DNA of 14,143 nt, taken from Candidatus Babeliales bacterium. GTDB taxonomy: Bacteria; Babelota; Babeliae; Babelales; JACPOV01. Positions within the stretch are counted from its first letter, which is position 1; the number at the start of each line of letters is the position of its first letter. Under the pieces are notes generated by a model, which saw only the letters and a program-made list of their open reading frames with translations, ran no database searches and was not told the DNA's origin. The translations under genes were made by a program, and so were the position numbers. Below are positions 3,362 through 13,984 of this stretch, piece after piece. The stretch is taken from the NCBI GenBank assembly GCA_020050475.1, contig JAGVKP010000052.1, forward strand, positions 1 through 14,143, given 5' to 3'.

Positions 3362-3835
3362 ATGTCTTTTAAATCAGCTTTTTGCACACTCATCGCCTTT
3401 GCGGCTTTCAGCTCATCTATTTTTTCAATGGAGCTGTCATCTAACAATCAAAACAGCACACGTACAAGCTCACAAGCTCGTTACATCAAAAGTAAAAGGC
3501 AAAAACAGCTCATCGCGCAGGCTTCACACCCATTGGCACGATTCAAACTGCGTAACGCAATCGCTCTTGCACAGTCAAGAGAGAAAAAAAGAATGATCAC
3601 CCTTGCATCGTATCGCGACCGCACTGTTAATCCTGGCGAATCGAAATCTAAAACGGAATTTTCTTCACACCTGACTCACCAAAAAGCACTTTTGAACGCG
3701 GCACAAAATAATCAAAGACCAGGTTCACTGAATCGTCCAAATCAACTAAAAAAAATAGGTAGAACGGAACGATTCGAAACACTTCCAGGATTCTCACGCC
3801 CCGCAACCCCTCCGTTACCTGACCTTGGCAAGTAA
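3362..3835 (+). CDS. Small exported basic protein, unknown function
   Basis: I do not recognise this 157-residue protein. It begins with a typical signal peptide: Lys4, then a hydrophobic stretch at about 6-21, with a likely cleavage before Met23-Glu24. The mature part is Ser/Asn-rich near its start and then strongly basic and helical (for example KSKRQKQ around 45-51 and REKKRM around 75-80), ending in a Pro-rich tail (ATPPLPD near 148-154). No cysteine is present in the mature part, so no disulfides are expected. The start is well supported by GGGGGA (3353-3358) just upstream. It is the first gene of a same-strand run of five exported proteins. The Met-Glu pair at the cleavage site recurs in four other proteins in this window. 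Export to the periplasm or outside is inferred from the signal peptide. Confidence 0.75.
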   Translation: MSFKSAFCTLIAFAAFSSSIFSMELSSNNQNSTRTSSQARYIKSKRQKQLIAQASHPLARFKLRNAIALAQSREKKRMITLASYRDRTVNPGESKSKTEFSSHLTHQKALLNAAQNNQRPGSLNRPNQLKKIGRTERFETLPGFSRPATPPLPDLGK

Positions 3836-3872
3836 GAAAAATAAAACGTAAATGTACTCATCGAGAATCACT

Positions 3873-4454
3873 ATGTTAAAAAAAATAATTTATCTATCTT
3901 GTGGGTTTCTAGGTATCAGCATGCCGAGCAGTCCTATGGAGAGTGCTTTTTCAACAACCAGCTCACCAGTAAAAAAAGCACCTACTCAAATCGCAAAAAT
4001 TCTTCAGAAAAAATCTACTGACGCTTTTGCAAAACTAGCTATGGACAAAACTACCTTGTTCAAATTGAGTACCAAAGCACGCTATCTCACTACTCAAAAA
4101 AAAATGCGCCAACTCGTTCATATGGCGTTTCGCAATACAGAAAAGAAAGAAGAATTAGCCAAAACATTGGAGCTTTATCGCAAGCTCTCGCAAAATGGAG
4201 AGCAAAAAAAAATTGATAAAAAGAACTATACTGCACAATTAAATCGATTATCTCGCGCAAACGTCACAACGACCAGTAAGCAACTGGTTGAAGATTGCAC
4301 TCGTACGAGTGCTCATCTGAGAGCCTTACAGGCCGTCGGTATAAAACAGGCCACCATCCCCACCCATTTAAATATAAAAAAATCGCATGCCGATGCTAAA
4401 AAACTACCCGCTGCTCAAGCAAAAGAAAAACGAAGATTAGCTTTGCAAAAATAA
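3873..4454 (+). CDS. Small exported Lys-rich helical protein, unknown function
   Basis: This product is 193 residues from the start I prefer, and unrecognised. MLKKIIYLSCGFLGIS forms a classic signal peptide (two Lys, then a hydrophobic core), with Met22-Glu23 at the probable cleavage site. An in-frame ATG at 3852 would add seven residues ahead of this and push Met-Glu to residue 29, out of line with its neighbours, so 3873 is favoured; neither start has a strong ribosome site. The mature protein is rich in Lys, Ala and Gln and should be mostly alpha-helical, possibly coiled-coil in the middle (about 75-135). A short HLRALQAVGI segment near 150-160 loosely recalls segments in other small proteins of this window. 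It lies 37 bp after the previous gene and is probably co-transcribed. Confidence 0.72.
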   Translation: MLKKIIYLSCGFLGISMPSSPMESAFSTTSSPVKKAPTQIAKILQKKSTDAFAKLAMDKTTLFKLSTKARYLTTQKKMRQLVHMAFRNTEKKEELAKTLELYRKLSQNGEQKKIDKKNYTAQLNRLSRANVTTTSKQLVEDCTRTSAHLRALQAVGIKQATIPTHLNIKKSHADAKKLPAAQAKEKRRLALQK

Positions 4455-4500
4455 GTATGCAAGGTTATTGCAGCATCCTCAGGATAAGTAAAGAAAAAAC

Positions 4501-5109
4501 ATGCGCTTACTCCTACTCTCAATTCTGGCTAGCCAACTTATTGGCCTTCATCTTTTGAGCAACATTCATGCGATGGAGCAACAAAATGTCGCCAACAGAA
4601 AGCTCAGTGGCAAAAAACTCTGTTTTGATAATGCCGCGAGCGATCGCTCTCAACATATTTTTCTTCCATCGCCCAAAGAAGTGGTGAATCAGAAAAAAAA
4701 GATGCGATGGTTTACCAAAAAGCATTTTGAAGCCACTCAACAGCTTAAAAAAAACCAGGCTGAGATCGAGCAGCTTAAAAATCAGCTCAAAAAAGGTGGC
4801 GTACTTATTGAAGGGATTGCTGCGCGTCACCATGCCATCAAACTACATCCGTCAAGAAACGGACTTTCGATACCATCATCAGCCGCGAAAATTAATATTA
4901 AAACTCTCAGAGAGCAAGTTAAAGATTTTCAGCTTTCAAAACCGATAACCCTACGCCAGTTGAAAAATCATAGGAGTATTGATAAATTTTGGCGCAAACA
5001 AAAAAAACAGATTGAACAAAAAATTGTGTCAGAAAAGATACATATGCAGACACTCGAAAAAACGATAAAACTACTGCAGGAAATCGGGATCAGCCATGAA
5101 ACTCGCTGA
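4501..5109 (+). CDS. Small exported coiled-coil protein, paralogue of the next gene
   Basis: This unrecognised protein has 202 residues. A leucine-rich signal peptide (1-24) ends in IHA, followed by MEQQN; cleavage after Ala24 would fit signal peptidase I. A linker, LSGKKLCFDNAASDR (35-49), precedes a likely coiled coil at about 60-98 (many Lys, Gln, Glu and Leu). A second basic helical stretch covers 150-195. The segment 32-66 aligns with 28-59 of the following gene's product, sharing the pattern basic-basic-L-x-F...A-x-(D/E)-R...P-x-x-x-(E/Q)-(D/V)-V, so I call the two divergent tandem paralogues. The ribosome site is weak (AAAGAAAAA). The 3' end overlaps the next gene by 14 bp, suggesting translational coupling. 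Confidence 0.75.
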   Translation: MRLLLLSILASQLIGLHLLSNIHAMEQQNVANRKLSGKKLCFDNAASDRSQHIFLPSPKEVVNQKKKMRWFTKKHFEATQQLKKNQAEIEQLKNQLKKGGVLIEGIAARHHAIKLHPSRNGLSIPSSAAKINIKTLREQVKDFQLSKPITLRQLKNHRSIDKFWRKQKKQIEQKIVSEKIHMQTLEKTIKLLQEIGISHETR

Positions 5110-5791
5110 AAAAATAGCTCTTTGCCTCGTGGTATATCTGACAAACTTTTTTGTGCCGAGCTTGACAATGGAACGATTACACACAAAAGCAGCACGCAGG
5201 CTTGATTTTTCCGGGCAAGCAGCAGAGAGAAATCAACCTTTTACCCCTCCGACAGAACAGGACGTCAAAAAAATAGCCAATCTTCTCAATTCAATAAGCG
5301 AAATACAGCAAACCATTATCCAAAAGCAAAAAACAATCACCGAAGACCAGCAACAACTTACCGCAGTTATTCGTAATCGAAAAATGCTTAAAGCTTTTTT
5401 TCGCAAGCGCCATCGAGAAACGCGATTTTTTGGACAAAAATTACGCAGGCCCGCAAGCCTCACGAGATTTGATGTTGAACAAGCACATAGCATGCTCAAT
5501 CGGCTCAACTTATACGTAGATCGAGCAGACCGTAAATTGCGCTACAACAAAATGAGGATACGCCGCATCCCATTGGAAGTAGCGGCATGTAAAGATACAA
5601 AAAGAAAACTTATACCGCAGCTCAAACAGCTTACCCTTACCGCTAATTTTAATAATGCAAAAATAAGTCTTGCAATAGGTTCGACGCTTCAGACACTTTC
5701 AAACATTAATCAAAATGAGCACTCTATCATGCAAACATTGAAGCCTAAAAAAGACCAGCTCAATGTACGTTGCTTGGAAAAATTACACTAG
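5096..5791 (+). CDS. Small exported helical protein, paralogue of the preceding gene
   Basis: This unrecognised protein has 231 residues. A signal peptide (MKLAEKIALCLVVYLTNFFV and on to Thr24) ends in SLT before Met25-Glu26. The early mature segment RRLDFSGQAAERNQPFTPP (34-52) matches the equivalent part of the upstream protein. This is followed by a Gln-rich helix likely to form a coiled coil (about 55-95), a very basic stretch (95-120 and 146-158) and a C-terminal helical part. The start codon lies inside the previous gene, with AGGAAA and GGGA shortly upstream, and the 14-bp overlap suggests coupled translation. Export and an envelope or secreted location are inferred; no catalytic motif is visible. 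The gene is followed by a 76-bp gap with a separate promoter candidate, so it may end the first transcription unit. Confidence 0.75.
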   Translation: MKLAEKIALCLVVYLTNFFVPSLTMERLHTKAARRLDFSGQAAERNQPFTPPTEQDVKKIANLLNSISEIQQTIIQKQKTITEDQQQLTAVIRNRKMLKAFFRKRHRETRFFGQKLRRPASLTRFDVEQAHSMLNRLNLYVDRADRKLRYNKMRIRRIPLEVAACKDTKRKLIPQLKQLTLTANFNNAKISLAIGSTLQTLSNINQNEHSIMQTLKPKKDQLNVRCLEKLH

Positions 5792-5803
5792 GTAAAAAAT
5801 CTC

Positions 5804-5832
5804 TTGAGTTAGCCTTCCTTATTTTGTACCAT
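5804..5832 (+). promoter_or_regulatory. Candidate promoter for the gene at 5868
   Basis: TTGAGT (5804-5809) and TACCAT (5827-5832) are separated by exactly 17 bp, each matching four of six consensus bases. Transcription would start near 5839, within the Fur-like box just downstream. The match is moderate and could be chance. Confidence 0.35.
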
Positions 5833-5833
5833 T

Positions 5834-5848
5834 TGAAAATCATTATCA
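5834..5848. promoter_or_regulatory. Fur-box-like operator
   Basis: TGAAAATCATTATCA matches the 7-1-7 inverted-repeat Fur consensus (TGATAAT-N-ATTATCA) at 13 of 14 defined positions. It lies 20 bp ahead of the start codon and over the predicted transcription start, where a bound repressor would block transcription. That Fur or a relative such as Zur or PerR binds it is inference; no regulator gene is in the window. Confidence 0.45.
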
Positions 5849-5867
5849 TTTTATTCGGAGATAACAA

Positions 5868-6200
5868 ATGATTTTCAGAAATAGAGCTATTGCTATTATA
5901 GCAATAGCAACCTTCGGCTCAATTCTCAGTAATGAAGATCAGCTTCAAAAACTTATGGAAAGATTTGCCAAGATAAAAACTAGTTACATTCATAATCCTT
6001 CAAGCGCCATTCCAGAAGAAACACATATTGCAAATCTTTCACAGGATGATCTTGGAGTAATAGAAAAACTGGTGGGATCGTTTGATCAAATAGCTAAAGA
6101 AACAAAAAATCGTAGAACAAATAGGCGATCACGTTCTCACGCCAACGAACTTCGTTCGATTCTGGCCAAGAGAAATATTACATTACTGACAGAAAAATAG
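5868..6200 (+). CDS. Small exported protein, unknown function, possibly metal-regulated
   Basis: This 110-residue protein matches no family I know. The first 21 residues form a signal peptide (Arg4 and Arg6, then an Ile/Ala-rich core), likely cleaved near ILS before Asn22. The mature part is helical, with an acidic segment around 45-60 and a very basic one at 82-90 (KNRRTNRRSRSH). The start is strongly supported by GGAG (5857-5860) with a 7-base spacer. The codons for residues 7-14 form a 23-bp palindrome, which could fold in the mRNA close to the start. The gene is preceded by a Fur-box-like element and its own promoter candidate, setting it apart from the four genes before it. It lacks the Met-Glu pair seen in several neighbours. 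Confidence 0.72.
   Translation: MIFRNRAIAIIAIATFGSILSNEDQLQKLMERFAKIKTSYIHNPSSAIPEETHIANLSQDDLGVIEKLVGSFDQIAKETKNRRTNRRSRSHANELRSILAKRNITLLTEK
5886..5908. repeat. 23-bp palindrome inside signal-peptide codons
   Basis: Arms GCTATTGCTAT (5886-5896) and ATAGCAATAGC (5898-5908) are perfect inverted repeats around the single base at 5897. The palindrome lies 16 bp after the A of the start codon at 5868. It could be an operator half-buried in the gene or an RNA hairpin near the ribosome site. It could also be a by-product of alternating Ala-Ile codons. Confidence 0.6.
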
Positions 6201-6275: not shown

Positions 6276-9200
6276 ATGAACGCGTCATCGATCTCATCAA
6301 AATCACCTATTTTTTGGATTTTATTAACGCTCACCTTTTCAGGTGGGCTTTTTTTTGCGCATCATTTTTTTCCTTATGCCTTTGCATTGCTCAATATCAA
6401 TATTTCAATGACACGCCATGAAGCGCTCAAAAAAGCATCTCTTGAAGCACTCAAGCATGGCTGGGGACCGAAAGATTTTTCGCAAGCCGCTTCATTTGAA
6501 ACCGATAGCGAAACGAAAAATTTTATTGAGCTGAAAGCAGGCGGCGTATCCGCCGTGACTGCCGTTATTGATGAAGGCTGGTATAATCCGTACTTTTGGA
6601 AAATACGTCATTTCAAAACACAAACCACCCAAGAAACGGCAGTCTATTTCATGCCAGATGGTAGACCGTACGGCTTTCAAGAGATCCTATCAGAAAATGA
6701 CTCCGGTGCGGCGTTAGATGCCCAGCAGGCACGCATGATTGCTGAAACCAAAGCATCAACATATTGGGGCATTTTATTTGATCAATACCAACGTGCCGAA
6801 TCGTCGCAAGAAAAAAAAATAAGCGGGCGGATCGATCACCATTTTGCCTACGAACGTATCGGTAAAAAAATTGCCGATGCACCGTACCGACTAACTCTTG
6901 GCATCAGCGGCGACCGTTTTACCGAGCTTTCATATAGCATAAAGGTACCGGAAACATTTACACGCGAATATGAACATATGCGATCTTCAAATAACACGAT
7001 CGCCTTTGCTTCTCTTTTTATTATGGCGCTTTTATACATCGGCGTTGGATGCACTCTCGGGCTTGCATATCTGGTACATCAGAATGCACTCTGGTGGCAA
7101 CCAGCCGCTATTTTTGCTGTCATTATAGCATCCTTGCAAGCACTCAATGAGGTCAATGAACTGCCACTTGCATGGATGGAATACCAAACGGCGCTCAGTA
7201 TTACAGCATTTCTTTTGGGGCTCTTTTCAAGCATTATTGCGCAATTTCTTCTTTATTCTGCACTCCTGACCCTCATTTTTACTATCGCGGAAGGACTATC
7301 TCGCACAGCTTTTAAGAATCATCTTATTTTGTGGCAGCTGTTTAAAAATAAGACTGCCAGTTCTTGGCAAGTAATTGGTCGCACCATCGGCAGTTATCTT
7401 CTTATTGGCTTTACGCTGGCCTATTCGATCGGTTTTTATGCTTTTGCGCATCAGATACTTGGCTGGTGGAATCCATCAGAGACTTTTTTAAATCCAAATA
7501 TTATTGCTACGTACGCGCCATGGTTCAGCTCTCTATCTCAATCAATTATGGCCGGCTGTATGGAAGAGGCACTGTTTCGCGCAATACCACTTGCCGGTGC
7601 CGCACTTATTGGCCAACGATTTGGCAAACGAAATTTATTCATAGCGATTGCCTTTATTGCGCAAGCAATTATTTTTGGTGCAGCGCACGCCAACTATGCC
7701 GCACAACCGGCATATACCCGCGTCGTCGAGCTTATTGTTCCTTCCTTTATTTTTGGCGGACTCTATTTAGTGTATGGTCTTCTGCCAGCTATGCTCACCC
7801 ATACACTTTTTGATATTTTCTGGTTTGCGCTGCCACTCTTTTTGGCACACGGCATGATGATTAATAAAATGATAGTCGTTTTTTGTAGCCTTGCACCGCT
7901 CTGGATTATTGCGTACGCAGTATACCGATATGGCAGACCACATCGGGCAGGATCATCTGCGTACAATAGCGCATGGCGTCCAAAACTAAGTGACGATTCT
8001 AGTGACTATGAAGAGCAAGAAGAACACGAACCGCAAACCATACCCCGCGCTGGCAGATTTTTATTGGCACTGGCAAGCATCGGCGCTGCCGCCTGTTGGT
8101 TTGCTACCACCCGATTTATTCACGACAACGAGTCCCTCCGCCAACCAAAAAAAGTTATTGAGCAGTCATTAGACGAACTGATTAACAGAGAGTACCCATT
8201 AGTGGCAGCTGAACCGTGGCATCGGATTATCTTCAGCGATGTCTCAATAGGGCAGCCGGATCTTTTTATCTGGCAGACGGCACGTAATCAATTTGCCAAG
8301 CTCATGGGCACCTATTTGCCTCCGGCTTATTGGATTGCGCGTGTTGCCCAATTTACCGGAGATCTAACCGCGCGAGCCGAGGAATATCGCTTTTATTTTG
8401 ACGGCACAGGAGAACTCAAGCGCGTAACGCATATCGTACCAGAATCACTTCCTGGCGCTAACTTAGCAGAACCTACGGCTGAAAAGAAAGTACATGAACT
8501 TTTCAACTCAGTATATACCGTTGATCCAAAAATGCTCAGTAAAATCAGTGCCGAATCAACAAAGCAACCAGAGCGAACTGACTGGGTATTTAAGTACCAG
8601 GATACAAACGTGGTGCTGCCTGAAGGGCAGGCTCGCTTTCAGGTAGATTTAAGTGGTGACACCGTAGCCGATTACCAGCGCCTCATTTTTGTTCCTGAAT
8701 CATGGCAGCGGACACAGCAGGAAAAAGAAACTATTTACCATATTATCGCCCTGTATGCCAAGATGATTTTAATTGGAGCACTCGCGGTCTTTGGCCTGAT
8801 TATAGCACGCCGTTGGCGCCGGATGAGCATCCCTTATCATGTCTTTTTTGTTATTGCAGGTATGGTATTCATTAAAGGAATTGGCCAGCTTTTAAATGTC
8901 TGGCCGCTCATTGAAGCGACATTTGTAACCAGCGAACCGTATCTGCATCAGCAATGGACCATGATTGGTCGTATGCTTTTACAAATTAGTATGTACGCCG
9001 TGAGCTTAGGTATTGGCGCCGCCGTAGCTAGCTTGCATTGGCAGCGCGTTTCTCATCGTCACACCTGGCATGAATATCTTTTTGTCGGCTGCGCTACCGG
9101 ATTAATCGTAACGGCCGTACGCTCACTTATGACGGCGGCATTATTATCACCAATTCCTCTTTTTCCCGATTATCGCTTTGCCGGAGCGCACTGCCCGGCA

Positions 9201-9605
9201 TTAGGATTTGTCGGCGGTATTATCAATCCGTTTATTTCGTCAATGATTGCTCTTTTACTCATAACGTGCGCAGCTGATATGCTGACAAACAATTGGCGCC
9301 GCCATCGCCTCCTGGGATGCATACTCATTGCCGGTCTTTTTGTCGTCAATCAAGCGACAGAAATTCACAGTATTGCATCCTGGATCGTTCCCGCGACATC
9401 TTTTGCCATTATAGTGAGTGTTCTTTATGCATGGTACCTGCGTCATTATCGACCGGCGCTGCCCTATGTCATCGGTACGTTTGTGGTTTGCCAAGTCGTC
9501 CAGCAGCTTACCTTTAATGCGTATCCAGGAGTCATCAGTGGCGCTCTCATTGCGCTCGCAGTTGTCAGTTTGATTTCCATCTGGTGGAGCAGACAATTAG
9601 CGTAA
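6276..9605 (+). CDS. Tandem-duplicated CPBP (CAAX-type) intramembrane metalloprotease, second copy catalytically dead
   Basis: This 1109-residue polytopic membrane protein belongs to the CPBP/Abi family of membrane proteases related to Rce1, which cleave substrates within or beside the membrane. Copy 1 (about 11-527) has an N-terminal membrane segment, a large soluble region (about 40-235) of the sort found ahead of some bacterial CPBP domains, then a bundle of about eight membrane helices carrying the three family motifs: Glu430-Glu431-x3-Arg435, Phe467-x3-His471 and His509-x3-Asp513 (Asn is commoner at the last position). An acidic cytoplasmic-type linker (572-587) leads to copy 2 (about 593-1109). 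Copy 2 repeats the soluble landmarks at a constant offset of 582: Arg185/Asp187 and Arg767/Asp769, SGD 211 and 793, VPE 224 and 806. Copy 2 contains no EExxxR and no FxxxH at the equivalent places, so it is presumably a non-catalytic half. The start has AAGGAG four bases upstream. The substrate is unknown. Confidence 0.88.
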   Translation: MNASSISSKSPIFWILLTLTFSGGLFFAHHFFPYAFALLNINISMTRHEALKKASLEALKHGWGPKDFSQAASFETDSETKNFIELKAGGVSAVTAVIDEGWYNPYFWKIRHFKTQTTQETAVYFMPDGRPYGFQEILSENDSGAALDAQQARMIAETKASTYWGILFDQYQRAESSQEKKISGRIDHHFAYERIGKKIADAPYRLTLGISGDRFTELSYSIKVPETFTREYEHMRSSNNTIAFASLFIMALLYIGVGCTLGLAYLVHQNALWWQPAAIFAVIIASLQALNEVNELPLAWMEYQTALSITAFLLGLFSSIIAQFLLYSALLTLIFTIAEGLSRTAFKNHLILWQLFKNKTASSWQVIGRTIGSYLLIGFTLAYSIGFYAFAHQILGWWNPSETFLNPNIIATYAPWFSSLSQSIMAGCMEEALFRAIPLAGAALIGQRFGKRNLFIAIAFIAQAIIFGAAHANYAAQPAYTRVVELIVPSFIFGGLYLVYGLLPAMLTHTLFDIFWFALPLFLAHGMMINKMIVVFCSLAPLWIIAYAVYRYGRPHRAGSSAYNSAWRPKLSDDSSDYEEQEEHEPQTIPRAGRFLLALASIGAAACWFATTRFIHDNESLRQPKKVIEQSLDELINREYPLVAAEPWHRIIFSDVSIGQPDLFIWQTARNQFAKLMGTYLPPAYWIARVAQFTGDLTARAEEYRFYFDGTGELKRVTHIVPESLPGANLAEPTAEKKVHELFNSVYTVDPKMLSKISAESTKQPERTDWVFKYQDTNVVLPEGQARFQVDLSGDTVADYQRLIFVPESWQRTQQEKETIYHIIALYAKMILIGALAVFGLIIARRWRRMSIPYHVFFVIAGMVFIKGIGQLLNVWPLIEATFVTSEPYLHQQWTMIGRMLLQISMYAVSLGIGAAVASLHWQRVSHRHTWHEYLFVGCATGLIVTAVRSLMTAALLSPIPLFPDYRFAGAHCPALGFVGGIINPFISSMIALLLITCAADMLTNNWRRHRLLGCILIAGLFVVNQATEIHSIASWIVPATSFAIIVSVLYAWYLRHYRPALPYVIGTFVVCQVVQQLTFNAYPGVISGALIALAVVSLISIWWSRQLA

Positions 9606-10051: not shown

Positions 10052-10140
10052 TCTTGCTTTTTGACGAAAAAATGCACGAGACTTTTTCTGAAAAAAAAGT
10101 TTTTATAACTCTCGATTCACTCAAAAAAAGGAGACCGCTT

Positions 10141-11535
10141 GTGCGTTTTATTAATTTTTTAAAAATAGGCAGCGTTCCACTTATAACACTAACGCTATTT
10201 GGGCAACAAGCCGGCACTCTTGAACAACAACTTTTACATGGCCAAACATCTTTTGAAAAACTTGGTATAGCAAATGAAAGCAGTTTTGATACAGCACTTA
10301 ATGCGTATAATAAAATCAACACTCAACTTGCTCATTTACCAAGCGCAAGACAACAAGCATCAAACGAATTTGCTCTCGAAGCTCTTTTTAAGATTGGCAT
10401 TTCTAACTCTGATTATCAGACTGATTTGATTAAATTTATCAATGATCAACTCCTATCGGCTTATCTTGCATTAAGTAAAGATAAATCACAGCAAGTTTTT
10501 ATGGACACACTCGAAAGATTTCTTGATCTTCTTAAAAAAGAATTAGAAAAGCCAAAGGTAAGCGAAGAATTAAAAATAGATTTTTCTATCCTTGTTGAAT
10601 CAATAAATCGAATGATTGCACAACTAACAAATACCGAAAAGCAGCGTGGCCCTTCCCAGTACGTCACAATACTGGTTTCAAAGATAAAAAATGAAAACGA
10701 CAATACGCAATTTCTCAAAAATTTTGTACATCGTTACGCTAATTCACCAGCATTGCTTATGATTGTTGAAATAAAAGAAGCGTACGCAAACGCGCTTTAT
10801 AAGCTTATCTTTGCTGAGGAATCCACAAACGCTATTCCTACATACGAATTTCGAAACCTTTTTTATAAGAGTCGATTGTCTAGTATTTTAGAAACAGTCA
10901 CGCCTAGGAAAGAATTACTTGACGAGGCAAAAAAAAGACTCGCCTCTCTTTTTGTTGAAGCTCGTGAGCGCTTTTTGGGCCTCATGAATCCTGTTGCTTC
11001 GGCAATTAAACAAGGTAACACACAAAATGTAGCAAAATCATTTGAAACACTTTTAAACCAACTTGTTGATCTTCGGCTGAGATTTGCATACTCCGCCTTA
11101 CCGGAAATTCATGAATCTTTGACCGATCTTACTTTAGCAACCAATCGCCTCCATCTTATTATGCTCGATACAAAAAATCCGGAAGATTATTTAAAAAAAA
11201 ATCCTAAGATAAAAAGACGCGACGAACAATTTGATGAAAAAGTGGCCGCCCTTATTGACAAAATTGATAAAACAATACGCCTTGCACCAATGCCTGCTTA
11301 TCGCGAACTCAGAGGAATTCTTCTAGAGCATAATCCACTTTTTTACGCCTCTTATGGCCTGCGCAATGCATACGTACGTAACATGCTCGAGCTTATCAAA
11401 AATAAATCTGCAGCATTCGGCAACGAACTGAGCAACGTCAAAGAACGATTAAAAGGTCTTGTGCGTAACGGCTGGCGGGCAAACGAAGCATTTAAAATAA
11501 ACAGTAATCTGTATAAAGAAGTAATGGATCTTTAA
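10141..11535 (+). CDS. Exported helical protein with two copies of an unrecognised domain
   Basis: I start this 464-residue protein at GTG 10141, because GGAG lies seven bases upstream and the codons from there encode a signal-peptide-like start (Arg2, then a hydrophobic core to about 21). An in-frame TTG at 10054 and ATG at 10072 would place charged residues ahead of it and have no ribosome site. The protein is almost wholly helical. A 23-residue block at 201-223 (N-S-P...IK-x-A-Y...LI) recurs at 397-419 (H-N-P...LR-x-A-Y...LI) with identical spacing, and the helices before each block also correspond (about 112-132 with 289-311), so the protein is an internal duplication. The C-terminal half resembles the whole next protein. 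No catalytic motif is visible. An envelope or secreted location is inferred. Confidence 0.72.
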   Translation: MRFINFLKIGSVPLITLTLFGQQAGTLEQQLLHGQTSFEKLGIANESSFDTALNAYNKINTQLAHLPSARQQASNEFALEALFKIGISNSDYQTDLIKFINDQLLSAYLALSKDKSQQVFMDTLERFLDLLKKELEKPKVSEELKIDFSILVESINRMIAQLTNTEKQRGPSQYVTILVSKIKNENDNTQFLKNFVHRYANSPALLMIVEIKEAYANALYKLIFAEESTNAIPTYEFRNLFYKSRLSSILETVTPRKELLDEAKKRLASLFVEARERFLGLMNPVASAIKQGNTQNVAKSFETLLNQLVDLRLRFAYSALPEIHESLTDLTLATNRLHLIMLDTKNPEDYLKKNPKIKRRDEQFDEKVAALIDKIDKTIRLAPMPAYRELRGILLEHNPLFYASYGLRNAYVRNMLELIKNKSAAFGNELSNVKERLKGLVRNGWRANEAFKINSNLYKEVMDL

Positions 11536-11554
11536 CTAAGCAAGGAAATTTATT

Positions 11555-12496
11555 ATGCGTTATCTTTATCAAATAATTTTAATGAGCTTTTTACAAAATG
11601 CCGCATGCAAAGCAATAATCCCAGAAATTGATAGACTTGCAAATAGAATTATTGTCTCAACGAGCATCCAAGATGTTATCGATCCCACTAAGGCAACCGG
11701 AAATTTAATCACATTGCCTAATCTAAAGGAATATCGCAACCTTCTCGAGCAAAATTTAGAAAAACTTGCCAGTCGGTCTGGTATTGACTACGTTGAACAA
11801 GACGCGCTCCAAGAAGCGCGTTCGCGACTTGAAAATGAGATAGGGCTCATCAATGAAAAAATAGATCAGTATAGTGTGCCGCTTGATCAAGCATTTTACG
11901 AGACACAAAAAAATATTTTTTTATCATTAGTCTCACAATTTTCAAAATCACAATCAAATTCTAATACGGCTACTGAATTTTATGATCTTTTTAAACGTCT
12001 TTACGATCATGTTGGTGGAATACAAATCTTGTATGATGAATCAAAAATACTGGATAATAAGCTCGTTAATCTTATAATCGCAACCTACCGTGTATTAAAC
12101 CTCCAAAAGGCTCTCTTGCCCGAAGACGAACGCCAATTGGGGGTTACACTTTCCCGCAGGTCCAATGAACAGGAAGACGCAATCAACTCCAAATTAAAGA
12201 ACCTACGTTCACAATTGGCAAAGAAAAAAACCTCTTTGCGTTCAATCGAAAAAGCAGTCCGTAACACGCTTGCTGATAATCCAATAATCTTTTTTACATC
12301 AGGGAGAATTAGATCAGAATATGTATTAGCAATGATCAAAGTAATCGAAGCGTACCGAGAGCAAAAAGATGATCAAGAAGCAAAGGCGCTTACATCACTG
12401 CTTCAAACTATTGTCAATGATCGCTGGGGAGGCGAATCAAAATTTGGTATTAAAAAAGATGCTTATCAAGAATTTATTTCACTCCCAAAGATATAG
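11555..12496 (+). CDS. Exported helical protein, single-domain paralogue of the preceding gene
   Basis: This 313-residue protein has a short N-terminal export signal (Arg2, hydrophobic to about 18). A Cys at 18 follows QNAA, but the position three before it is Asn, so it is not a good lipobox and I do not call a lipoprotein. From about 55 on, the protein aligns with residues 230-461 of the preceding gene's product: E-(F/Y)-RNL at the start (59-63), a Ser/Asn-Thr-rich turn and helix (132-150), the NP...Y block (241-264), and a C-terminal R-x-W or G-W followed by K-x5-Y-x-E (290-306). A charged coiled-coil-like region spans about 205-235. The start has AAGGAAA upstream and is 19 bp after the preceding stop, so the two form an operon. 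No known family. Confidence 0.75.
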   Translation: MRYLYQIILMSFLQNAACKAIIPEIDRLANRIIVSTSIQDVIDPTKATGNLITLPNLKEYRNLLEQNLEKLASRSGIDYVEQDALQEARSRLENEIGLINEKIDQYSVPLDQAFYETQKNIFLSLVSQFSKSQSNSNTATEFYDLFKRLYDHVGGIQILYDESKILDNKLVNLIIATYRVLNLQKALLPEDERQLGVTLSRRSNEQEDAINSKLKNLRSQLAKKKTSLRSIEKAVRNTLADNPIIFFTSGRIRSEYVLAMIKVIEAYREQKDDQEAKALTSLLQTIVNDRWGGESKFGIKKDAYQEFISLPKI

Positions 12497-12613: not shown

Positions 12614-12937
12614 CTATAATTTTGAGGGCTGCCGAAAGAGCACTTTCAGAGTGTCTGCTTTTGCTCGATTCACCTTGGTTTCATTCTGCTCTATGAATTT
12701 CATAGTCCTTAAAATTGCCAAGCTGTGCTCATTTTTAATCTGATATCGTGGATAATAAACTGAGGTATAAAGTTCGGCATAGGCAACCGTCCGCTGCATG
12801 GAATAGGGCAGATTTTGGTCAACAAGTTTTTGCAACTTGAAGATCAATTTTTGCCGCTCAGTAAGTTTTCCCGTCGTGTAAACGGAATGAGAAGAAATCA
12901 CAACAAGCATCGATAAGAGGTGTCTGTATTTCATCAT
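12614..12937 (-). CDS. Small exported protein, unknown function, last gene of the minus-strand cluster
   Basis: This unrecognised protein has 107 residues. A signal peptide (Lys3, Arg5, hydrophobic to about 16) is followed by a helical, Tyr- and Lys-containing mature part. A stretch QIKNEHSLAILR (66-77) weakly resembles VKPEHLNTLR in the protein encoded at 13631-13984, so distant relationship within the cluster is possible. The start codon overlaps the upstream gene's stop by four bases (ATGA on the minus strand), a hallmark of translational coupling; a second Met codon follows directly. No catalytic motif, no mature cysteine. The 3' end faces the hairpin at 12551-12594. Confidence 0.7.
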   Translation of the reverse strand: MMKYRHLLSMLVVISSHSVYTTGKLTERQKLIFKLQKLVDQNLPYSMQRTVAYAELYTSVYYPRYQIKNEHSLAILRTMKFIEQNETKVNRAKADTLKVLFRQPSKL

Positions 12938-13182
12938 AATTTCGATTTGAGGCGTTTCGGTGTTTTTTTAGCTGATTGAATACTCGCTTCATTACTGCTT
13001 TTTTTTAGTTCATTTTTTTGCTGATTTTGTGCTTTTTTATCAGACGGCTCAAGTATACCAGAATTGCTCGGTTGGTTAAGCGCTTCTTGTAACCCTATTG
13101 CAAATCCGGTAACGACGTTTTGCTGCTGTGCTGGCGTCAATCCAACCAGAAATCCTATCAGGAAATTGTTCCAATGCTTCAT
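12934..13182 (-). CDS. Small hydrophobic-headed protein with a basic tail, unknown function
   Basis: This product is 82 residues and unrecognised. A hydrophobic segment (FLIGFLVGL, 7-15) near the N-terminus could be an export signal or a membrane anchor; a second mildly hydrophobic stretch follows at about 22-35. The rest is Gln/Asn/Ser-rich, ending in a strongly basic tail (KKTPKRLKSKL, 72-82) that resembles the polybasic end of the protein encoded at 9682-9903 in composition only. Two GGGG runs lie just upstream of the start. The stop overlaps the start of the next gene by four bases, so the two are translated together. Confidence 0.62.
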   Translation of the reverse strand: MKHWNNFLIGFLVGLTPAQQQNVVTGFAIGLQEALNQPSNSGILEPSDKKAQNQQKNELKKSSNEASIQSAKKTPKRLKSKL

Positions 13183-13219
13183 ATACCCCTTCCCCTTGCT
13201 AAATAATAGTCAGCTACTT

Positions 13220-13549
13220 TTATGGATTTTCTTTATCTAGACCCAAAAGCTCGCGCCCTATCGCAAAGACTTTCGGACCAGTCAAGCCGCGATTCATAAG
13301 CAGTTCGCAAGCTGATGTACGATCTGGATGAATCTGTTCCGGCTTTTTACACCATCTAGCAAAAAGGTTAAGCGCCTGTTTTGATACCCTACTACCATCT
13401 TGCGAACGCCACACCAACGTATAGAAGTGATTTTCGACCGCCGATCGCAGCTGCTCATTTTTCTCTTCAAGCAACGAAGATTTTGCATTATACAGGCAGA
13501 AAGACGGCAAAAAAATAGTGAAAAGAAAGAGATATAATGCGCAGTTCAT
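13220..13549 (-). CDS. Small exported protein, paralogue of the protein encoded at 13631-13984
   Basis: This 109-residue protein has a signal peptide (1-18, hydrophobic and ending in PSFC) and an unrecognised mature domain. Residues 59-101 align with residues 53-92 of the neighbouring protein: AL-x-x-LFA, a Lys-rich turn, a Pro, then L-x-x-x-GL, six residues, AI-x-x-E-(I/L) with identical spacing in the last part. Two cysteines (67 and 81) are present in the mature domain and could form a disulfide outside the cytoplasm. The start has AAGGAG six bases upstream. It lies 37 bp ahead of the next minus-strand gene and probably forms an operon with it. Confidence 0.73.
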   Translation of the reverse strand: MNCALYLFLFTIFLPSFCLYNAKSSLLEEKNEQLRSAVENHFYTLVWRSQDGSRVSKQALNLFARWCKKPEQIHPDRTSACELLMNRGLTGPKVFAIGRELLGLDKENP

Positions 13550-13576
13550 GGCTTTCTCCTTTTTATAAAAATAGCA

Positions 13577-13604
13577 AAGGCAGCCCCTAAAAAGGAACTG
13601 CCTT
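13577..13604 (-). terminator. Hairpin between two minus-strand genes, terminator or attenuator
   Basis: Read on the minus strand, AAGGCAGTTCC (13604-13594) pairs with GGGGCTGCCTT (13587-13577) as an 11-bp RNA stem including two G-U pairs, with a 6-base loop. A U-rich stretch (TTTGCTATTTTTAT, counting from the stem end) follows, as in an intrinsic terminator. It lies between the stop at 13631 and the ribosome site of the gene starting at 13549, so it would limit read-through into the downstream genes. Confidence 0.6.
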
Positions 13605-13630
13605 CATAACTTGATCTTTAATAAAGTTAC

Positions 13631-13984
13631 TTATTTACTATTCGTTTGATGCTGTTGAGCTTGTTGAGATTGCTCGCGCATCTGCTCCATCTTATTAACA
13701 ATCCAACGAATTTCGTTTGGGATAGCAAGTGTATTGTTTGGAATCAAGCCTGCTTGACGCAAAGTATTAAGATGTTCAGGTTTTACGGCAGCACCAGTTT
13801 TCGATTTAGCGAAAAGTTCTTCTAAAGCACCTGTATTATTTTGAAGCGTTAGAGAAGAAATTCCCAACAGCGTACGCTGCGTCCATACAATTGCCTTATC
13901 AACCGAATTATTATTGTTGTTCTGCTGCTCCATAGCCACCAATGGCCCTGCAATCAATAACGAAAGTAAAAATAGTCTTTTCAT
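13631..13984 (-). CDS. Small exported protein with Met-Glu cleavage-site motif, unknown function
   Basis: This 117-residue protein has a textbook signal peptide (Lys2, Arg3, then LFLLSLLIAGPLVA) with cleavage after Ala17 before MEQQ. The mature protein opens with five Asn, has a helical middle and ends in a Gln-rich tail (about 100-113). Residues 53-92 form the domain shared with the protein encoded at 13220-13549 (ALEELFA, then LRQAGL, then AIPNEI). Its MEQQN start of the mature chain is identical to that of the protein encoded at 4501-5109. AGGGGA lies upstream of the start. The gap to the gene before it is 40 bp with no visible terminator. No known family. Confidence 0.75.
   Translation of the reverse strand: MKRLFLLSLLIAGPLVAMEQQNNNNNSVDKAIVWTQRTLLGISSLTLQNNTGALEELFAKSKTGAAVKPEHLNTLRQAGLIPNNTLAIPNEIRWIVNKMEQMREQSQQAQQHQTNSK

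Follow-up and report, generated by a model that had tools for sequence, protein, structure and literature searches.

The window analysed here is a stretch of 14,143 nucleotides from Candidatus Babeliales bacterium (assembly GCA_020050475.1, contig JAGVKP010000052.1), in which an open reading frame (ORF) on the plus strand, at 6276-9605, encodes a membrane protein of 1109 amino acids that consists of two homologous modules in tandem. The genome carrying this tandem gene comprises 738 kb at 79% completeness, and the nearest named relatives of the tandem protein belong to the Dependentiae/Babeliales. Each copy of the module comprises a single anchor helix, a YcdB-like domain that is predicted to lie outside, and about nine further helices that form a membrane bundle. 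The parts of the gene are as follows, with residue numbers in brackets.

6276..9605, plus strand: whole tandem protein, 1109 amino acids; an open reading frame, with relatives of full length
6300..6371, plus strand: copy 1 anchor helix (9-32), from hydropathy
6372..6983, plus strand: copy 1 ectodomain (33-236), YcdB/YcdC-like; HHalign 99.9% to the copy 2 ectodomain, outside by the charge rule
6984..7955, plus strand: copy 1 membrane bundle (237-560), about 9 helices, from hydropathy and loop charge
7518..7820, plus strand: CPBP/Rce1 catalytic core, PF02517; 45.7 bits, cut-off 22.4
7563..7580, plus strand: EExxxR motif (430-435), read directly; in 175/175 relatives
7674..7688, plus strand: FxxxH motif (467-471), read directly; H471 in 175/175 relatives
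7800..7814, plus strand: HxxxD motif (509-513); H509 in 175/175 relatives, position 513 is D in 165 and N in 10
7956..8045, plus strand: linker between the copies (561-590), read directly; cytoplasmic by the charge rule
8049..8120, plus strand: copy 2 anchor helix (592-615), from hydropathy
8109..8726, plus strand: copy 2 ectodomain (612-817); HHalign 99.9% to the copy 1 ectodomain
8727..9053, plus strand: copy 2 helices 1-3 (818-926), homologous to 237-350; HHalign 97.0%, E 8e-11
9138..9602, plus strand: copy 2 degenerate core (955-1109), without catalytic residues and probably CPBP-derived, from HHalign comparisons made directly and via intermediates

A preliminary description of this DNA had proposed a head-to-tail duplication of a CPBP intramembrane protease with an intact first and a catalytically dead second half, and had named an HHalign comparison of the halves as a check. 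All three parts of that proposal hold. Alignments built from 105 full-length relatives matched residues 9-560 to 590-1109 at 100% (E 9.2e-45), ectodomain to ectodomain at 99.9% (E 3.6e-33) and bundle to bundle at 97.1% (E 6e-11), while four reversed-profile controls for these comparisons gave 0.7-1.0%. Identity between the halves is only about 16%, and a BLASTP of half against half within the single protein gave E 5e-5 over the soluble region. The bundle signal is carried by helices 1-3 (97%, E 8e-11). Searched against other genomes, the copy-2 profile also picks up copy 1, with E of about 1e-21 to 1e-40 where both copies lie in one frame. The constant offset of 582 residues described earlier applies to the landmarks R185-x-D187/R767-x-D769, SGD 211/793 and VPE 224/806, but it falls to about 559 at P415/P974, as the stretch from helix 3 to helix 5 is about 23 residues shorter in copy 2. 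Even so, residues 1087-1103, the last helix of copy 2, are the positional counterpart of the last helix of copy 1 (527-545).

Copy 1 carries the motifs read in the preliminary description, EExxxR, FxxxH and HxxxD, at 430, 467 and 509. A larger set of 175 non-redundant sequences was obtained from 197 by removing copies of at least 90% identity and gappy rows, and in all 175 of these relatives EExxxR, [FW]xxxH and Hxxx[ND] occur in order in copy 1. Such invariance is expected of a catalytic site, and EExxxR and HxxxN are described as the catalytic site in the available text of PMC11980579. Copy 1 also matches ordinary CPBPs by profile at 82-91% (the ordinary-CPBP profile comprises 24 ORFs taken from 30 loci), and 41 of its columns (33-560) are fixed at 97% identity or more, compared with 9 in copy 2 (600-1109). 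A genome search placed PF02517 on copy 1 at 45.7 bits, about twice the curated cut-off; hmmscan did not report the family in the same protein, although it found it in 24 of 33 copy-1 modules, and standard annotation may therefore miss the active half. Judged by these features copy 1 is a glutamic intramembrane protease of the CPBP/Rce1 type, from which we infer proteolysis.

The second copy has lost these residues. The ordered motif triple is present in 0/175 copies 2, and single motifs anywhere in the bundle are found in 1 (EExxxR), 46 ([FW]xxxH) and 34 (HxxxN/D) of the same relatives; PF02517 was found in 0/34 copy-2 modules. In the tandem protein adjacent glutamates occur only at 430, 579, 582 and 702, so that residues 820-1109 indeed contain no such pair, and a lone FxxxH (968) lies elsewhere than at the equivalent place, and in 105 relatives the five commonest residues at that column do not include histidine. 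Eight of the 9 fixed columns fall in the ectodomain. With few fixed columns and without the motifs, copy 2 is thus retained as a domain and not as a catalyst.

Both copies have the same predicted topology. Averaged hydropathy gives, for each, an anchor helix, an ectodomain and about nine helices, of which the last three merge in copy 1. When loops up to helix 7 are assigned in or out by alternation from an inside N-terminus, lysine and arginine together number 12-28 per 100 residues in the inside loops of both copies, compared with 2-7 in the short outside ones. This pattern predicts that both ectodomains lie outside and both C-termini inside, as a cytoplasmic SpoIIE domain in the fused relatives described below would also demand.

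The preliminary description had suggested looking for the two-copy architecture in related genomes, and it is widespread there. In the genome collection 288 pattern matches included 184 related stretches that encode a relative, and the best 80 of these 184 were retrieved. Their record titles name Dependentiae, Acidobacteria, Neomarinimicrobiota, KSB1, Caldithrix, Poribacteria, Gemmatimonadetes, Bdellovibrio/Oligoflexia, Gammaproteobacteria and others, though the labels of metagenome-assembled genomes can err. The tandem gene's own locus, 15 of 19 relatives and these best 80 make up 96 loci, which hence represent the closest relatives, and 92 of them contain one uninterrupted ORF of at least 1000 amino acids (the exceptions are L014, L072, L073 and L086). 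Within the phylum of the tandem gene's genome, 39 of 101 genomes match the copy-2 profile, 34 of these with the tandem in one frame (1078-1166 amino acids), and 33 of those 34 gave a PF02517 match. Of the remaining five genomes one has copy 2 alone (G042), two have matches at contig ends (G061, G078) and two have a split tandem (G021, G064), which in G021 adjoins unknown bases. In the G106 phylum 51 of 120 genomes matched, of which 47 did so in frames of at least 999 amino acids, but in the G105 phylum only 3 of 114 did (two tandems, one marginal). G103 is an acidobacterial record, and in its phylum the profile of the SpoIIE-fused module matched 36 of 149 genomes, some weakly; among the ORFs read there at the 20 loci returned are single modules with motifs, tandems and SpoIIE fusions. 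A second, more distant (acidobacterial) tandem type is represented by 11 sequences, of which the acidobacterial search gave 7, a search for relatives 3 and G106 one. Single modules of about 540-650 amino acids have all three motifs at L217-L220, and EExxxR and HxxxD without [FW]xxxH at L226, L227 and L180; PF02517 was confirmed in L180 and L218.

A profile search of genomes with copy 2 returned an 821-amino-acid relative in a Caldithrix genome that has a SpoIIE domain at its end (Pfam E 1e-43). For this relative 30 loci were returned, and the 26 with an intact ORF of more than 740 amino acids were used. All 26 come from the phylum to which the Caldithrix genome belongs and have the same ectodomain-plus-bundle ahead of a SpoIIE-type region, and Pfam confirmed SpoIIE in 10/10 fused proteins tested (8 of the 26 and 2 acidobacterial). 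The SpoIIE-fused bundle matches copy 1 of the tandems at 98.5% and the ordinary-CPBP profile at 93.4%, and PF02517 was found in 11/26. Motifs anywhere in the bundle are rare (EExxxR 1/26, [FW]xxxH 4/26, HxxxN/D 2/26), and the second glutamate is kept in 19/26 and the arginine in 22/26. By these matches and losses the SpoIIE-fused bundle is CPBP-derived yet catalytically dead. SpoIIE phosphatases with such a dead bundle as membrane input are encoded at L179 (712-3174) and at loci L187-L216.

Two exceptions, each from one genome, are informative about the second copy. G042, which is 96% complete, encodes a 541-amino-acid copy 2 alone, near radA, where relatives have the tandem; this protein nests among tandem copies 2 on the tree described below (support 84), and its genome gave no PF02517 match. 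G051, one contig at 95% completeness, encodes a tandem of 1148 amino acids (L183, 1528-4971) in whose copy 1 Q430, N471, N509 and N513 replace E, H, H and D; this copy 1 retains 32 of the 41 fixed columns, and the genome again gave no PF02517 match. Since one relative keeps copy 2 alone and another keeps the tandem with the catalytic residues of copy 1 replaced, the pseudo-half probably serves a function in its own right. A third genome, G035, has both a tandem and a 575-amino-acid protein with a different N-terminal part followed by a copy-2-like bundle (L178, 591-2315). The latter adjoins glycosyltransferase-like and flippase-like ORFs, as named by eye.

We propose that the tandem protein is a glutamic intramembrane protease covalently joined to a dead copy that senses or regulates, and we give this reading a probability of about one half. 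Established at the level of sequence are the duplication, a copy 2 devoid of catalytic residues, the same predicted topology in both halves, wide conservation, and dead bundles of the same superfamily on SpoIIE phosphatases; proteolysis by copy 1, its regulation by copy 2 and sensing by the ectodomains are the three points that we infer. In each copy a CPBP-type bundle of about nine helices would sit in the cytoplasmic membrane, with the YcdB-like domain on the outside. The dead bundle would most likely be the receptor or regulatory half. The copy 2 ectodomain would detect an envelope ligand or the state of the envelope, which the copy 2 bundle would relay by contact, controlling substrate access or the activity of copy 1. 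The roles first suggested for the dead half included those of inhibitor or partner of the fused protease; these are probably not the whole story, because copy 2 stands alone in one genome and related dead bundles occur on SpoIIE phosphatases. More tentatively, dead CPBP bundles with a YcdB-like ectodomain could represent an unnamed class of bacterial transmembrane receptors, and the tandem a signal-gated intramembrane protease. If true, this receptor class plugs onto SpoIIE phosphatases (in the Caldithrix phylum and Acidobacteriota) and onto an active CPBP protease in the tandem, where receptor and enzyme share one chain and both descend from one protease.

Several observations weigh against this proposal. 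The protein of the G051 lineage presumably does something without cutting. The SpoIIE fusions represent a signalling use of related dead bundles and not of copy 2, and form their own group on trees. Compared directly with ordinary CPBPs by profile, copy 2 reached 0.8-5%, and the copy-2 core of the acidobacterial tandems matched the copy-1 core of the ORF 6276-9605 family at only 7-8%. Outside the Dependentiae neighbourhood no operon partner recurs in more than 6 of the 96 loci.

Alternatively, copy 2 might be a substrate-holding scaffold that presents a substrate helix to copy 1 and senses no signal. This would resemble APH-1, for which the available text of PMC7387801 gives a CPBP-type fold, low conservation of catalytic residues and a proposed role in presenting substrate. 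Covalent fusion holds the two halves at a 1:1 ratio, and the ORF is uninterrupted at 92 of the 96 loci. However, copy 2 stands alone in G042, in whose genome no PF02517 protein was found, and related dead bundles are attached to phosphatases. We regard the scaffold as clearly less likely than a sensing or regulatory copy 2.

It is also conceivable that the tandem is not a protease in practice and that the CPBP scaffold has another membrane function, such as lipid-linked modification, chaperoning or transport, for which the same residues are or once were used. The G051 tandem with its replaced catalytic residues and the isolated copy 2 of G042 would fit such a role, as would the precedent of LnsB, a protein with remote CPBP homology that is needed for lipoprotein N-acylation according to the available text of PMC7387801. 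This explanation seems improbable to us given that the motif residues are invariant in the 175 other relatives and that seven single modules keep EExxxR and HxxxD, four of them (L217-L220) together with [FW]xxxH and three (L226, L227, L180) without it.

The proposal that copy 2 is a dead protease further requires that its last helices derive from a CPBP core. If only the ectodomain and helices 1-3 had been duplicated and the last helices of copy 2 were unrelated, there would be no pseudoprotease. In direct comparison these helices match CPBP weakly (21-56%): 405-560 against 955-1109 gave 26% with 105 sequences and 56% with 175, and because the best mismatched helix pair reached 33% in one run and 19% in another, the direct core match alone is unconvincing. 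The low values of copy 2 against ordinary CPBPs and of the acidobacterial copy-2 core against the copy-1 core of the ORF 6276-9605 family, and the lack of PF02517 in copy-2 modules, point the same way. Intermediates, however, make the gap smaller. The SpoIIE-fused dead bundle matches copy 2 at 89% (E 2e-6) for 927-1109 and at 42-67% for 955-1109. For the acidobacterial copy-2 core the values are 94-95% to the SpoIIE-fused core, 96-97% to the copy-2 family of ORF 6276-9605, where 955-1109 gave 96%, and, to copy 1 of the same tandems, 73% over a longer stretch but 21% over a shorter one. An unrelated transporter alignment used as a control gave about 1% or less, and reversed-profile controls for the intermediates mostly stayed at or below 11%, one reaching 25.7% over 28 columns. 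In both copies about six further helices follow helix 3. Because the intermediates match and the predicted loop orientation is the same, the copy 2 core is probably a decayed CPBP core, and we consider a partial duplication quite improbable.

The tandem is an ancient family found in many phyla and not a local duplication. On a tree of the ectodomain and helices 1-3 from 131 modules, made by a quick method, the 47 copies 1 all come together in a single group (support 86), as do the 29 SpoIIE-fused modules in a group of their own (89). Copies 2 are of two types, that of ORF 6276-9605 (38 rows and G042) and the acidobacterial one (9 rows), and those of the acidobacterial type lie nearer to copy 1 and the single modules than to the other type. 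With 40 chosen rows of the 131, copy 1 was again one group, at a support of only 58, and a single clade for all copies 2 was not rejected (p 0.567), which does not thereby demonstrate such a clade. Copies of one kind group with each other and not with the other copy of their genome, which places the duplication before the family spread. A recent local duplication or an assembly artefact, for which only the repeated landmarks themselves speak, is refuted by the divergence of the halves, by the grouping of copies 1 across phyla and apart from copies 2, and by the one-frame tandem in 34 of the 39 matching genomes of the same phylum, leaving it a negligible chance.

Neighbouring ORFs were clustered at the 96 loci, 15 of which have short flanks. 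The largest clusters, at 12, 8 and 6 loci, are radA-, tdk- and murA-like by eye and reflect Dependentiae-type synteny; as no other cluster exceeds 6 loci, a conserved operon was rejected as a clue to the substrate. Between radA and the tandem gene lie 180-1962 bp in 10 of 11 relatives with radA adjacent, compared with 3059 bp here and 4032 bp in L071. Five short ORFs stand in a row at 3362-6200 (157, 200, 202, 231 and 110 amino acids), with starts that resemble signal peptides by eye; they gave no Pfam match above cut-off and no mutual BLASTP match at E 0.01, and given the wider radA gap they look lineage-specific. Downstream of the tandem gene, 10054-12496 encodes two predicted proteins (493 and 313 amino acids) with no Pfam match above cut-off, and the minus strand at 12614-13984 contains four short ORFs (107, 82, 109 and 117 amino acids), most with signal-peptide-like starts by eye.

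How intramembrane proteases become active is still an open question, and the available text of PMC11980579 calls the prokaryotic CPBP members largely unexplored. A naturally occurring fusion of an apparently active with a dead copy, kept across many phyla, offers a ready experimental system for regulation by a dead half, and the SpoIIE fusions, which put the same kind of dead bundle before a signalling enzyme, allow the idea that a dead intramembrane protease can serve as a receptor to be tested directly in bacteria. In the open-licence literature, judged by titles and the beginnings of abstracts among the matches listed, neither a tandem CPBP with a dead half nor a CPBP-SpoIIE fusion was found. 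Pseudo-CPBP proteins are already known; within that literature, the combination of an active with a dead CPBP in a single conserved chain and the use of dead CPBP bundles as SpoIIE phosphatase input appear to be new. In the scans made the modules have no family name of their own and are named by Pfam mainly through PF02517 and PF16244. An NCBIfam scan, limited to six tandem proteins, gave a sub-threshold MrtJ match in one relative and one sub-threshold SLATT match, and a search of solved structures by sequence returned a single match (E 0.67) that we take as chance.

Among known systems, copy 1 resembles the CPBP/type II CAAX (Rce1-like) endopeptidases of PF02517, such as MmRce1 and MrtX, with EExxxR, FxxxH and HxxxD in or near membrane helices. 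The myxosortase MrtX has 239 amino acids (PMC11980579, in its available text), whereas the tandem protein adds a YcdB-like ectodomain and doubles the whole module, with one copy dead. The ectodomains resemble the YcdB/YcdC repeated domain PF16244, which is above its curated cut-off of 27 bits in the relatives P0110 and P0111 (28.5 and 29 bits) but gave no match in a Pfam scan of the tandem protein itself; at E 0.01 it was found in 1 of 33 copy-1, 3 of 34 copy-2 and 4 of 26 SpoIIE-fused modules. The same general idea, an inactive intramembrane protease that regulates, is known from the rhomboid pseudoproteases (iRhoms and derlins), which belong to another protease family and are not known to be fused to an active copy. 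Closer to copy 2 are SpdC/LyrA, LnsB and APH-1, for which the available text of PMC7387801 gives CPBP-type folds without conserved catalytic residues. SpdC, which is there held almost certainly to lack protease activity, acts on signalling through membrane segments, which take part in its binding of histidine kinases, WalK among them (PMC5854430, in its available text). These are separate proteins, whereas copy 2 is fused to an apparently active protease and has its own ectodomain. Finally, SpoIIE/RsbU-type PP2C phosphatases with membrane input include the relatives that carry a homologous ectodomain and dead bundle before SpoIIE; PF07228, the SpoIIE/RsbU phosphatase domain, is absent from the tandem protein in the Pfam scan and present only in those relatives.

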